A stretch of DNA of 64,000 nucleotides from Phycisphaeraceae bacterium (GTDB taxonomy: Bacteria > Planctomycetota > Phycisphaerae > Phycisphaerales > Phycisphaeraceae). This document shows positions 5,715 through 39,932 of this stretch, in pieces; within the stretch, counting starts at the first letter, position 1; each line of letters starts with the position of its first letter. The notes beneath the pieces are model-generated. The model did no database searches and was not told the origin of the DNA. It saw only the letters and a program-made list of their open reading frames with translations. The stretch spans positions 1-64,000 of the forward strand of contig JAJDCS010000043.1 of the NCBI GenBank assembly GCA_029260715.1. The letters run 5' to 3'. Position numbers and translations under genes: made by a program.

Positions 5715-6500
5715 TTAAGACGGCTTACGTCCGACGCCGATAACGCTTTGCCCGAACGGCGGAGTTACAACGCGCTCCAGCGCGCTCAGTAGCGGCACGA
5801 TCCGATTGAATGATACCGCTTGCTTGGCGGGCACGAGGCGCCTGCGGAGCACCACGCTGTTGAACCACCAGCCAAGCAAGCCGATTGTGTTGCTGTACCG
5901 ACCCGAGACCCATTCCAAGCCGGCGTCTTGGAACACATTTTTTAAAGACCGTTTGGTGTACCGCCGGTAGTGCCCCAGTTCACGGTCGAGCCGGCCCAGC
6001 GCCGCCGGGCCCGCGGGCACGAACGCCACCACCTTCCCGCCGGGGCGCAGTTGGTCAGCCATCAACGCGACCATCTCGCGGTCGTCTTCGATGTGTTCGA
6101 GCACGTTGCTGCTGACCACCGTGTCAAAAGTCTCCGCGTCGTGCGTGGGCCTGGGCAGGCTTTGGAGGTCGGCGTGCATCGCCTTAACGTGAGACGCGTG
6201 GCTAAACCGTTGGTTGAACGACTGCACAAACTGCTCGACCGGGTCGATGCCGACCACCTCGGTCGCACTCATGGACAGAAACCGGGTGATGTTGCCCGTG
6301 CCGCAACCGACTTCCATGACCCGCCCCGCCACGTGCGGGCGAAGCAGGCTGTAAATCCAGTGGTTGTATTCGTACAACTCGGAGATCGTGGCCAGCGAGT
6401 CGTCGATGACGTCCGTCCCCACCGGCGTCGCCGCGTCGAACGCGGGGCCGGGGCTGAGCGTGTCGGGATGGTTCAGTGACAGAGCCGGCTGTGACGCCAT
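5715..6500 (-). CDS. Class I SAM-dependent methyltransferase
   Basis: This 261-residue protein has the glycine-rich SAM-binding motif I EVGCGTGN (residues 63-70), an acidic strand-2 end (VVGIDPVEQF), and a motif-IV region VVSSNVLEHIEDD followed by RPGGKVVAFVPAG. This is the layout of Methyltransf_11/23-type enzymes. The C-terminal part has a hydrophobic stretch (TIGLLGWWFNSVVL). It is the first gene of the minus-strand group that continues into the two GT39-like transferases. That suggests methylation of a lipid-linked sugar or polyprenyl intermediate, but the substrate cannot be read from sequence. TAGGTG serves as a modest ribosome-binding site. Confidence 0.8.
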   Translation of the reverse strand: MASQPALSLNHPDTLSPGPAFDAATPVGTDVIDDSLATISELYEYNHWIYSLLRPHVAGRVMEVGCGTGNITRFLSMSATEVVGIDPVEQFVQSFNQRFSHASHVKAMHADLQSLPRPTHDAETFDTVVSSNVLEHIEDDREMVALMADQLRPGGKVVAFVPAGPAALGRLDRELGHYRRYTKRSLKNVFQDAGLEWVSGRYSNTIGLLGWWFNSVVLRRRLVPAKQAVSFNRIVPLLSALERVVTPPFGQSVIGVGRKPS

Positions 6501-6518
6501 GAAAACACCTACTTATCG

Positions 6519-6572
6519 CGGTTGATGGGCCTGTAGGGCTTGTAGCGTCTGTATCGGTTGTAAGGGTGGGCG
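6519..6572. repeat. Tandem 9-bp repeat array (copy 1)
   Basis: Consecutive 9-bp units read CGGTTGATG, GGCCTGTAG, GGCTTGTAG, CGTCTGTAT, CGGTTGTAA and GGGTGGGCG. The shared pattern is (C/G)GN(C/T)TGTAN, repeated in strict 9-bp register. It lies 19 bp upstream of the minus-strand methyltransferase start. The same pattern recurs at 6701-6745 and 38588-38632. Confidence 0.75.
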
Positions 6573-6700
6573 ACTTAATGGCGGGTGGGTGTCGCGCCCA
6601 AATTAAAGATATATATAAAGATAGGTGTTGAACCGGCGGCGGGGCGGTGCGATTTTTACACTTTTATCGGCCTGGAGCTAAAGAACCTTTCTTAGGATGA

Positions 6701-6745
6701 CGACTATAGGGTCTGTAGGGGTTGTAACGGTTGTATCGCTTTGCC
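6701..6745. repeat. Tandem 9-bp repeat array (copy 2)
   Basis: Units in 9-bp register are CGACTATAG, GGTCTGTAG, GGGTTGTAA, CGGTTGTAT and a degenerate CGCTTTGCC. They share the TTGTA/CTGTA core and register of the array at 6519. It ends about 100 bp upstream of the GT2 start codon. Confidence 0.75.
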
Positions 6746-6843: not shown

Positions 6844-7647
6844 ATGATCCAGACCCTCAGCATCGTAATCCCGGTTTACAACGAGTGCGACCTGTTCTTG
6901 GACGTGGTCGAGCGTGTGGAGTCGGCGCCGCTGCCGGCGGGCATGCGCCGGCAGATCGTGATCGTCGACGATTGCTCGACCGACGGCACGACCGAGTTGC
7001 TGCACAGGCTGTCGCGGCGACGCCCGGACCTGACGATCCATTTCCACCCGGTCAACCGCGGCAAAGGCGCCGCGCTACGCACCGGGTTCAGCCTGGCCAC
7101 GGGCGACATTGTTTTGGTCCAAGACGCGGACCTGGAGTACGACCCGAACGAATACCCGCAGTTGCTCAAGCCGATCCTCGACGGCCGGGCCGACGTGGTC
7201 TTCGGCTCGCGCTTCATCGGGCACGCCCACCGCGTGCTGTACTACTGGCACTGCGTGGGCAACCGCTTCTTGACCATGCTCAGCAATATGTTCAGCAACC
7301 TGAACCTCACAGACATGGAGTGCTGCTACAAGGTCTTCCGCCGCGAGGTGGTCCAGCGGGTCTCGATCCAGGAGAACCGCTTCGGCTTCGAGCCGGAAGT
7401 CACCGCGAAGATCGCCAAGATGCACGCTCGCATCTACGAAGTCCCCGTCAGCTACGCAGGACGCACGTACCAGGAAGGCAAGAAGATCACCTGGCGTGAC
7501 GGGTTCTCGGCGTTGCGGTGTATCATGCGATACAACCTCTTCACCGGTCGCGTGGCGCCGCTGCTGATCGCGTCGACACCTACCAACGAATCCGACGCTG
7601 TGGAGCAGCCCATCCCCATCAGCGAAGCCGCCAAGCAAGCGGCGTAA
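6844..7647 (+). CDS. GT2 family glycosyltransferase (DPM1-like)
   Basis: This 267-residue enzyme shows the GT-A fold signatures SIVIPVYNE near the N-terminus, [10 protein letters not shown] (nucleotide binding) and the metal-binding DXD as QDADLEYDP. The region [11 protein letters not shown] followed by [14 protein letters not shown] is typical of dolichol/undecaprenyl-phosphate mannose or glucose synthases. There is no C-terminal membrane domain. It could make the polyprenyl-phosphate sugar donor used by the two GT39-like transferases encoded nearby; this is inference from context. The ATG at 6844 was chosen over an upstream TTG because GAGG lies 7 nt before it. Confidence 0.85.
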
Positions 7648-7830
7648 AGCCGGGGCGGGTTTGGAATCCCAGGCACGCACCAAGCAATCGCCGGCCTGCC
7701 GGGGTATTGGGAAAAACTTTCTACCGCACTTCACCGTCGCGCAGTTTCTTTAAGCATTTTATGTTTGCGCCCGGTTGCCGCATTGGCTGAGCTTACCCAC
7801 GGTTTTAATTGACGGGTGGGCAGCCGTCAT

Positions 7831-8649
7831 ATGCTTGAGTCTTACGGGATTAAACCCGTGGGCGGCCGTGGTGAGGCGAGTCTTATTGTGTTGAATGGCG
7901 GCGCGTTGATGACGGCGTTCTATAAAAGAGGGTTTGAGATCTTAAGGTGGTACAACCGCGATTACGCCGACACACTGCTCGCTTTTATTCCGGCGACTTT
8001 TGGTTTTGAACCCGATTCGTTTTCGGAGCTGTTCCAAGGCCGACGCGCCCCGGTGTATTTTTATGCCCGTGAGCAGCCGAGCCTTGACTTGCTCAGGTCC
8101 GTGAAATTCCCGTGTCCAGCCCAATTCGGCATCGACCACGATATGGCTTTCCACCTCCAAGGCACGCGTTATATTGAGGGTTTGATAAGCAGCCAGCGCA
8201 ACCGCCACGTGCTGATCGTCGAGCGTGCGGACCCGGAAGGCACCACCGGATTGCGCACCGCAGCGATCGGCCCGTCTTTCTTCAAACGATACTTGCCCAA
8301 AGCGATCAAGACGCGCATCAAGCACGCCGTGTGGGAACGCCGGGCGCGAGACCAAACAAAGCTGACGGAGTTTGCCCGCACGGCTCTTCGCGGTGCCTTG
8401 GCGGACAACCCCGGGTGGGAATCCCTGCCCGTGTTTTCTGCGGACATCAGCGCCCAAGAGGTGTGTACCTTTAAGCGATTTTCACAGCTTATCGCCGACG
8501 CGGCTGTGGTCATCACCACAAGGATGCACGTGGGAATTTTAGCGGCGATGCTTGGGAAGCCCGTCTACATCAATCGCGGGTCGCATCACAAAATCCGTGG
8601 TGTCTACGAGCACTCGCTGAAAGACTTAAAGCACGTCCAGCTTATCTAG
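7831..8649 (+). pseudogene. Polysaccharide pyruvyltransferase-like gene, apparently 5'-truncated
   Basis: The 272 residues match the C-terminal two thirds of the polysaccharide pyruvyl transferase family (PF04230). The signature VVITTRMHVGILAAMLGKPV sits near the C-terminus, and PAQFGIDHDMAFHL occurs centrally. The N-terminal glycine-rich segment of the family, which normally precedes the LNGGALM-like strand by 50-90 residues, is absent, and a TGA at 7810-7812 closes the frame just upstream. Starts are possible at GTG 7816 or ATG 7831. No good ribosome-binding site precedes either. Codons are richer in TTT, TAT and TTA than in neighbours, hinting at a different origin. It may be a decayed gene or a divergent short member; I favour a remnant. 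Confidence 0.55.
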
Positions 8650-37847: not shown

Positions 37848-38513
37848 CTACATCGCGGACTGGTCCCAGATTTTTGGGATCGTTGCCAGCAGCAGGCGGA
37901 TCTCCCGCCAGACACTGCGGTGACGCAGATAACGCAAGTCGTAAGCCAGTTTTTTGCGGGCGCCTTGCGCGTCGAAGGTGTACCCGTTGCGGACCTGCGC
38001 CAGGCCGGTCAGCCCCGGCTTGGCGATTAGCCGACGCTCTATCTTGGGCATCGACTTGCGAAGTCTCTCGATAATTTCCGGGCGTTCGGGCCGCGGCCCG
38101 ACCAGGCTCATCTGCCCCTTGAGGATGTTCCACAACTGGGGCAGCTCATCGACGTGGCTCTTGCGCATCCAAGCGCACCCCGGCAGGATCCGTGGGTCGT
38201 TGCCGCTTGCGAACCTGGCTTTGCCGTCGCTTTCGGCGTCGGTGGCCATGGTGCGCAGCTTGTAGAGCCGGAACAGCCAGCCGTCGCGTCCCGTGCGCCA
38301 CTGGCAGTAGAACACCGGCCGGCCGTCGATCAGCATGATCCACGCGGCCGCGATGCCCAGCAACGGCGCTAGCAGGGCAAGGCCGATCGCTGCGCCCACG
38401 ACATCGACGACGCGCTTGGCGTACTCAAACCCCTTGCCGGTGGCATTGCCAGCCGGTGCTTTCGTGAGCGGGCCATCGAGTTGTGACAGTACATGCGACA
38501 TTGGTTGGGCCAT
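37848..38513 (-). CDS. Polyprenyl-phosphate sugar-phosphotransferase (bacterial sugar transferase)
   Basis: The 221 residues have one hydrophobic membrane segment (VVDVVGAAIGLALLAPLLG) after a KRVVDV start. The catalytic core is LYKLRTM and, further on, DELPQLWNILKGQMSLVGPR, the signature of initiating sugar-phosphate transferases. It loads the first sugar onto undecaprenyl phosphate at the inner face of the membrane and so starts repeat-unit synthesis. It has only the C-terminal catalytic module (EpsL/PglC-size), not the four extra helices of WcaJ. Starts at 38513 and 38501 are both possible. An extension to 38750 would translate the repeat array and is rejected. It is the first gene of the export operon. 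Confidence 0.85.
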   Translation of the reverse strand: MAQPMSHVLSQLDGPLTKAPAGNATGKGFEYAKRVVDVVGAAIGLALLAPLLGIAAAWIMLIDGRPVFYCQWRTGRDGWLFRLYKLRTMATDAESDGKARFASGNDPRILPGCAWMRKSHVDELPQLWNILKGQMSLVGPRPERPEIIERLRKSMPKIERRLIAKPGLTGLAQVRNGYTFDAQGARKKLAYDLRYLRHRSVWREIRLLLATIPKIWDQSAM

Positions 38514-38897
38514 CCCTACGGTCGGCGGTATCAGAAGCGATATCGTCGTGATATTTGTGCTACTTAACCGGAATATGAGATTTAGCACGGATATAACGAT
38601 TATCCGGGTTGTAACGGTTGTAGGGGTTGGTGTGGGCTTTTCAGGTCTGGGATTGTCCTTTTGTCTTTTTTTAAAAGGACTTAACAGCGGTGTTCGCGTG
38701 GTGGGGGCGTCCCATAACGCTGCCGTGCCGTCGCCATGAATTGGCGGCATTTTTTAGGCACACGCCAAGCGTTGCGTGGCGCACGGCGTAGCTATATGGA
38801 CACACGCTCCCCGGGTGATGCGCCAGATTGGCTGTTTTCGGCTTGGTTTGCCGATGAAACCTTCGTTGATTCTTTCATTAATAGATGGAGGTAGCCC
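38514..38897. other. Divergent intergenic region between the export operon and the epimerase gene
   Basis: These 384 bp should hold the promoters of the export operon (minus) and of the epimerase gene (plus). They contain the third 9-bp repeat array (38588-38632), about 75 bp upstream of the operon's first start codon, and an AT-rich stretch (38540-38605). No gene is supported. Confidence 0.6.
38588..38632. repeat. Tandem 9-bp repeat array (copy 3)
   Basis: Units in 9-bp register are CGGATATAA, CGATTATCC, GGGTTGTAA, CGGTTGTAG and GGGTTGGTG. The inner units are identical or one base different from those at 6719-6736. All three arrays run in the same orientation on the plus strand and lie upstream of divergent polysaccharide genes. 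Confidence 0.75.
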
Positions 38898-39932
38898 ATG
38901 GCGACACGTGTGCTGGTTACAGGCGCGGGGGGGTTCATCGGACACCACTTGGTCAGCTTCCTTAGAGGAAGGGGGTACTGGGTGCGGGGGGTGGACCTGA
39001 AGCGTCCGGAGTTCGCGCCCACGGCGGCGGACGAATTCGTCGTCGCGGACCTGCGAGACGCGCAGGTGAGCATGTCCACCACGCAGGGCATCGACGAGGT
39101 CTACGCCTTGGCTGCTGACATGGGTGGTATGGGTTTCATCTCCCAGCACCACGCATTGATCCTGCACAACAACTCGCTGATCAACCTGCACACACTCGAA
39201 GCGGCCCGGTGCAACGGCGTGAAGCGGTATTTTTACTCCTCCACGGCGTGCATCTACCCAGAGCACTTGCAGACCGAGGCCGAGATTGAACCCTTAAAGG
39301 AAGAGCAGGCCTACCCCGCGGCGCCTCAAGACGCCTACGGGTGGGAGAAGCTCATCGCCGAGCGTCTGTGCATGCACTACATGGAGGATTACGGGATGCA
39401 GACGCGCGTGGCGCGTTTCCACAATGTGTTCGGGACGCTGGGCACGTGGGACGGCGGGCGCGAGAAGGCGCCGGCGGCGATGTGTCGCAAGATCGCCTAC
39501 GCGAAGCTCACCGGAGGGCGAGAGATCGATATATGGGGCGATGGCGAGCAGACGCGGTCGTTCTGCTACATCGACGACTGCGTGGAGGGCATCTACCGGC
39601 TGATGCGGTCAGACCACGGCGAGCCGATCAACCTCGGGTCGGACCTGATGGTGACCATCAACCAGTTGGCGGACATCGTAGCTCGCGCGGCGGGGGTACG
39701 GATTACCAAGAAGCACATCGAAGGGCCCCAAGGCGTACGCGGGCGAAACTCCGACAACACCAAGCTGCGCCAGGTGCTGCGGTGGGAGCCGAGTGTATCG
39801 CTGGAAGAGGGGTTGTCACGGACGTACACCTGGATCGAGTCTCAGGTAGCTAAGCAGTTGGCCCAACAGGTGGGGCCTGTGATCAACACGTTACAAAGAG
39901 GCTCCGACAAGCCGTTGCGCCGCGCGGTTTAA
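38898..39932 (+). CDS. GDP-mannose 3,5-epimerase-like NAD-dependent sugar epimerase
   Basis: This 344-residue short-chain dehydrogenase/reductase has the NAD motif VTGAGGFIGHHL and the segment ALAADMGGMGFI, which is strikingly like plant GDP-mannose 3,5-epimerase. It also has SSTACIYPE with Cys118 at the catalytic-acid position, and the YxxxK pair Tyr147/Lys151 in AYGWEKL. The family turns GDP-D-mannose into GDP-L-galactose or GDP-L-gulose. It is probably a nucleotide-sugar supplier for the surrounding glycan genes. GGAGG precedes the ATG. It ends tail-to-tail with the UDP-sugar dehydrogenase gene; the two stop codons share a TTAA. Confidence 0.85.
   Translation: MATRVLVTGAGGFIGHHLVSFLRGRGYWVRGVDLKRPEFAPTAADEFVVADLRDAQVSMSTTQGIDEVYALAADMGGMGFISQHHALILHNNSLINLHTLEAARCNGVKRYFYSSTACIYPEHLQTEAEIEPLKEEQAYPAAPQDAYGWEKLIAERLCMHYMEDYGMQTRVARFHNVFGTLGTWDGGREKAPAAMCRKIAYAKLTGGREIDIWGDGEQTRSFCYIDDCVEGIYRLMRSDHGEPINLGSDLMVTINQLADIVARAAGVRITKKHIEGPQGVRGRNSDNTKLRQVLRWEPSVSLEEGLSRTYTWIESQVAKQLAQQVGPVINTLQRGSDKPLRRAV

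Follow-up and report, generated by a model that had tools for sequence, protein, structure and literature searches.

Short arrays of 9-bp units, repeated head to tail upstream of genes for surface polysaccharides and related functions, form what appears to be a conserved family of cis-regulatory direct-repeat operators of the Phycisphaerales, for which we infer a regulatory function from sequence comparisons. The most probable reading, to which we give a probability of about 0.6, is that each 9-bp unit binds one subunit of a protein that assembles cooperatively and head to tail, and that this protein controls the genes facing the array. An operator of this kind would comprise three or more head-to-tail units; a sequence-specific DNA-binding protein would occupy them side by side, one subunit per unit and cooperatively, in the manner of BldC; and the bound protein would control the facing genes, which are a methyltransferase/GT2 pair and a sugar-transferase/epimerase pair in the window (the whole 64,000-nucleotide stretch of DNA analysed here). 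Protein binding, the head-to-tail mode and the control of surface polysaccharide, pilus and related genes are three separate elements of this model, all of which we infer. The named relatives nearest to the genome that contains the window are Phycisphaeraceae (Planctomycetota).

Three arrays with an exact 9-bp period

Genes in the window were called with a codon-usage gene finder and Pfam, and all three of its arrays lie in spacers of divergent gene pairs. Two of them share the 343-bp spacer between a methyltransferase (Methyltransf_23/11; 5715-6500, minus strand) and a divergently transcribed GT2 glycosyltransferase (6844-7647, plus strand), neighbors that the earlier note had identified correctly. 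The array distal to GT2, array A (6529-6564, plus strand; units GCCTGTAGG GCTTGTAGC GTCTGTATC GGTTGTAAG), is found about 20-60 bp upstream of the methyltransferase start; reading the sequence directly, its perfect YTGTA words begin at 6531, 6540, 6549, and 6558, that is, in exact 9-bp steps, and a degenerate unit at its edge (6520-6528, GGTTGATGG) has its word start at 6522. Array B, proximal to and upstream of GT2 (6702-6737, plus strand; units GACTATAGG GTCTGTAGG GGTTGTAAC GGTTGTATC), has perfect words at 6713, 6722, and 6731 and a degenerate CTATA at 6704. A shorter third copy, array C (38598-38631, plus strand; GATTATCCG GGTTGTAAC GGTTGTAGG GGTTGGT), occupies the spacer between a bacterial sugar transferase (37848-38501, minus strand) and an NAD-dependent epimerase/dehydratase (38898-39932, plus strand), both of which have their 5' ends toward it. 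The gene at 7816-8649 of the window encodes a 277-aa protein in which a match to polysaccharide pyruvyl transferase spans about 30 residues, and is possibly diverged or broken.

The units follow the consensus G-G-Y-T-G-T-A-n-n, in which nn is most often A/T-C or G-G; the nn positions vary between units while TGTA is kept. YTGTA is asymmetric, has no internal dyad and runs in one direction throughout each array. In the window, six YTGTA-N4-YTGTA pairs were counted (five in arrays A and B and one at 38609) where dinucleotide shuffles gave an expectation of 0.12, and none of 100 shuffles reached six; for the three-unit pattern with up to three mismatches, the count was 6 against 0.01 expected. 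The arrays reported in the earlier note are thus real, although the search pattern that it proposed, with three free positions, describes an 8-bp period whose three-unit form has no match in the genome; four is the right number. Without mismatches, the three-unit N4 pattern has its only matches in the 3.32-Mb genome at arrays A and B, and allowing one mismatch adds one array outside the window, at C42:154806-154838. This additional array is followed, some 50 bp further downstream, by a perfect 26-bp palindrome (GTCGCATTTGTGCGCACAAATGCGAC; L008:4739-4764, contig C42), of which TGCGCACAAATG is retained in a genome of another genus of the same family, G032 (L060, about 1440-1450), and which may be the site of a second regulator.

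We compared periods in 788 kb of the same genome (24%), chosen without regard to arrays, by counting three-unit arrays with a score of at least 14. In intergenic DNA, period 9 yielded nine arrays, compared with 0-2 for each of the periods 7, 8, and 10-14. Intergenic DNA of family loci that had not been chosen for arrays gave a similar picture (nine arrays for period 9, 0-3 for the other periods), but this set includes the GT2 loci L156-L163 and the P0001 loci described below and is therefore not independent of the conservation result. Spacings of 9, 18, and 27 bp made up 7 of the 14 intergenic YTGTA pairs lying between 5 and 40 bp apart. Nine base pairs are also three codons, and repeats of periods 9 and 12 are present in coding DNA, where the two go up together as codon repeats would; this is what a chance or coding origin of the arrays has in its favor. 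We consider such an origin negligibly probable, given that no shuffle reached the observed count, that best profile matches are intergenic in nearly all genomes (see below) and that noncoding footprints are conserved. As for a reading in which TGT encodes a cysteine at every third codon, two arrays were inspected by eye, and in both the TGT frame runs from the last stop into the array without any start codon.

Conservation and location of the arrays in Phycisphaerales

Arrays with a 9-bp period were found upstream of orthologous GT2 genes in seven other genomes, in the same orientation and usually as a distal and a proximal copy, while the remaining intergenic sequence shows no conservation. 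These loci (L155, L156, L157, and L160-L163, eight with the window) were collected by a collection scan with GT2 as query, a profile search and a direct scan. In all eight, the best three-unit array in the 400 bp upstream of GT2 is on the plus strand; among periods 7-12, period 9 scores highest, and no more than 1 of 200 shuffles reaches the best array. The second array is clear in the window, L155, L156, L160, and L163 and weaker in L157 and L161, and it is not significant by the shuffle test in L162. The window and L160-L163 have a methyltransferase as the divergent neighbor of GT2, L156 and L157 have an acyltransferase, and L155 has something else, so that the arrays, which stay, outlast changes of neighbor. 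No array match was found upstream of GT2 homologs from outside this group, which come mostly from other phyla and include a few distant Phycisphaerales.

G032 carries two such arrays. One, at C55:186575 (locus L155), is upstream of the ortholog of the window GT2, and the spacers of the two genomes align at both arrays and hardly elsewhere; the other, at C55:32000, is upstream of the ortholog of P0001, the same place as in the genome of the window. These observations bear on the suggestion, made in the earlier note, that the arrays belong to a small family of repeats with a preference for intergenic DNA. Tandem 9-bp units that recur in many genomes and mostly between genes are what transposition or slippage of a dispersed short repeat without regulatory function might leave. 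However, the arrays upstream of GT2 are held in place across genera whose flanking sequences have diverged, their nn positions differ while TGTA is kept, and almost every intergenic match faces a gene start. Neither non-orthologous insertion nor near-identical copies were found; the arrays instead occupy orthologous positions in genera that have diverged, and their units are degenerate, which leaves a dispersed repeat family very improbable.

For a wider survey, a sequence-only profile (R1) built from seven arrays was run on 81 genomes, along with a control profile (R2) consisting of the R1 columns in reversed order. In 28 other Phycisphaerales genomes, the best R1 match was intergenic in 26 of 28 cases, compared with 3 of 30 for R2 (Fisher p = 1e-10), and 25 of the 26 intergenic matches have at least one gene with its 5' end toward the array. 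The earlier note had held that its proposal would fall if such patterns were no more frequent in intergenic than in coding DNA, and the R1 matches show the opposite distribution. Location alone separates the two profiles: total weak matches to R1 are not above those to R2, and the two-unit pattern with two mismatches, counted genome-wide, is not above its reversed control either (71+82 versus 121+146). Weak single matches therefore mean little, because reversed controls yield as many.

Array A of the window and the arrays of L064 and L139 precede a start codon by 11-60 bp and likely fall within a leader, as would be expected of an RNA element recognized in the 5' leader by an RNA-binding protein or a small RNA. 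On the other hand, with respect to a single facing gene, arrays are in the same orientation in 14 cases and in the opposite orientation in 11, and the distance between array and predicted start ranges from about 14 to 600 bp. Because orientation is mixed, a DNA site fits better than an RNA leader, which we hold to be improbable, if marginally less so than a dispersed repeat family. Of the platform for a stacking regulator envisaged in the earlier note, the cis-element is well supported by orthologous conservation, the intergenic location of R1 relative to R2 matches, the 9-bp period and the mixed orientation, while the stacking protein itself keeps the conditional standing given above.

Two further sequence features were observed in or around arrays. 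In several genomes, TTATCGG is about fivefold denser in intergenic DNA within 300 bp of arrays than in intergenic DNA elsewhere (22 of 15,956 versus 50 of 174,810 positions), and by eye it sometimes looks like an edge unit that keeps the register of the array (GGTTATCGG). In a genome from another family of the order, G038 (L063, about 1500-1570), an array of about nine 9-bp units (GTCTGTAGC, GGCTTGTGC, and similar) lies in an apparently noncoding stretch.

Genes facing the arrays

In the genome of the window, other arrays are located between an FkbM methyltransferase gene and a GT4 gene (C9:163843), before a methyltransferase gene (C16:130883), and before a GDSL hydrolase gene (C9:161663). Genes facing the matches include those for GT2, GT4, GT9, ABC-2 exporters, a sulfotransferase and alginate export, acyltransferases, several methyltransferases, a sulfatase, a GDSL hydrolase, pilus-type ATPases (T2SSE), T2SSF, a flagellin, a GGDEF response regulator, and an HDOD protein, together with genes that have no evident link to these, encoding a dUTPase, CpeT, a nucleoside symporter, and a topoisomerase. 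As a background, 60 promoter-facing genes were drawn at random from the genome of the window; among the matches listed for this one genome, T2SSE had two members and the glycosyltransferase, ABC-2, acyltransferase, and methyltransferase families had at most one each. An enrichment of arrays at surface-function genes is suggested by this rough test against a one-genome background. The link to glycan genes raised in the earlier note applies to the window and to several further loci, but the targets are broader and extend to pilus, flagellin, and c-di-GMP genes.

Related operators and candidate binding proteins

Tandem sites with a strict period other than the helical turn are familiar from ribbon-helix-helix proteins that bind cooperatively: MetJ recognizes palindromic met boxes with a period of 8 bp, and the omega repressor recognizes heptads with a period of 7 bp in mixed orientation. 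The arrays described here share such strict tandem spacing; they differ in having 9-bp asymmetric units rather than 8-bp palindromes. Response regulators of the OmpR/PhoB type bind direct repeats arranged head to tail with a period of about 10-11 bp, one helical turn. Head-to-tail repeats upstream of envelope genes are a feature in common, but here the step is exactly 9 bp.

The closest parallel in spacing is BldC of Streptomyces, a protein with a MerR-like winged helix-turn-helix (HTH) that places one subunit on each 9-bp site of head-to-tail direct repeats (PMC5859096; PMC11963761), a 36-mer with four repeats taking up four subunits and the unit consensus being AATTXXXX(C) (PMC5859096). Period, same-orientation direct repeats and array length all agree with the arrays here, whose GGYTGTAnn units lack the AATT core and belong to another phylum. 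The operator of KfrA from plasmid RA3 is likewise made of 9-bp repeats, five in number and overlapping the promoter, three of which run one way and two the other (PMC7783346). KfrA is a plasmid autoregulator with repeats in both orientations, whereas the present arrays are chromosomal, have a single orientation each and serve many putative targets.

The KfrA operator, with its five 9-bp repeats, lends some weight to the view that the operator is as we describe it but is occupied by symmetric dimers or by response regulators acting in pairs (KfrA-like helical, ribbon-helix-helix, or receiver-domain proteins). A further argument is the presence of HTH_17-receiver fusions of about 195 aa, with a BldC-like HTH_17, in the genome of the window, which has three paralogs, and in its relatives (sampled families f1, f2, f3, f5, and f6; loci L312, L313, L314, L322-L324, L326-L329, and L338). 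Against this view stand the asymmetric units and their single direction within each array, which contrast with the three-versus-two arrangement of KfrA repeats; HTH_17-receiver proteins, moreover, are encoded in array-poor genomes as well. We consider this alternative unlikely, though the most serious of those weighed here, and retain the head-to-tail assembly of single subunits as the preferred reading.

Three kinds of protein were examined as binders. P0001 (L008:4045-4551, minus strand), with P0004 (L060:776-1198, minus strand), is a small protein with two HTH-like modules; the first module of P0001 resembles sigma-70 region 4, and a Pfam search with P0001 returned no family above the cut-off. 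It is encoded in 28 of 51 family genomes. As an autoregulated binder it was rejected, since among the ortholog loci examined an upstream array is present only in the genome of the window (G000) and G032; nor is its presence associated with arrays within the family (p = 0.1-0.26). A small MerR-like protein (alignment A4) correlates significantly with arrays (18/25 versus 7/56), but this association is confounded by lineage, and a weak correlation is seen with the reversed control as well. No ortholog of it was found in G000, G010, G027, G029, and G039, which speaks against it, although the genome of the window is a metagenome-assembled genome (MAG) with a completeness of 96.5%, so that failing to find a gene there is no proof that it is absent. 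The MerR-like protein is 75-100 aa long and lacks the usual C-terminal domain (L355-L362, L350); its gene lies just before that of a large membrane protein and, in some loci, after a prfB-like gene. Families f1 and f6 commonly encode it; in f2, f3, and f5 it was not found, apart from two weak matches in f5. HTH_17 proteins as a whole occur in array-rich and array-poor genomes alike and are therefore not discriminating. None of P0001, the MerR-like protein and the HTH_17 proteins fits every array-bearing genome.

To our knowledge, the regulation of transcription in Phycisphaerales has hardly been explored, and our literature search on planctomycete promoters with such repeats found no linking paper, only chance primer matches. 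It is quite possible, though somewhat less likely than not, that a single protein forming filaments in 9-bp steps coordinates genes for surface polysaccharides, type IV pili, flagella, and c-di-GMP across the order; this regulon would be a hitherto undescribed one, and its binder would come from a family for which no operator has yet been described. The arrays constitute a defined DNA bait for such a regulator of the cell surface and come with a testable list of targets. They may also represent, beside BldC, a second natural case in which the formation of head-to-tail filaments could be studied at an exact 9-bp step.
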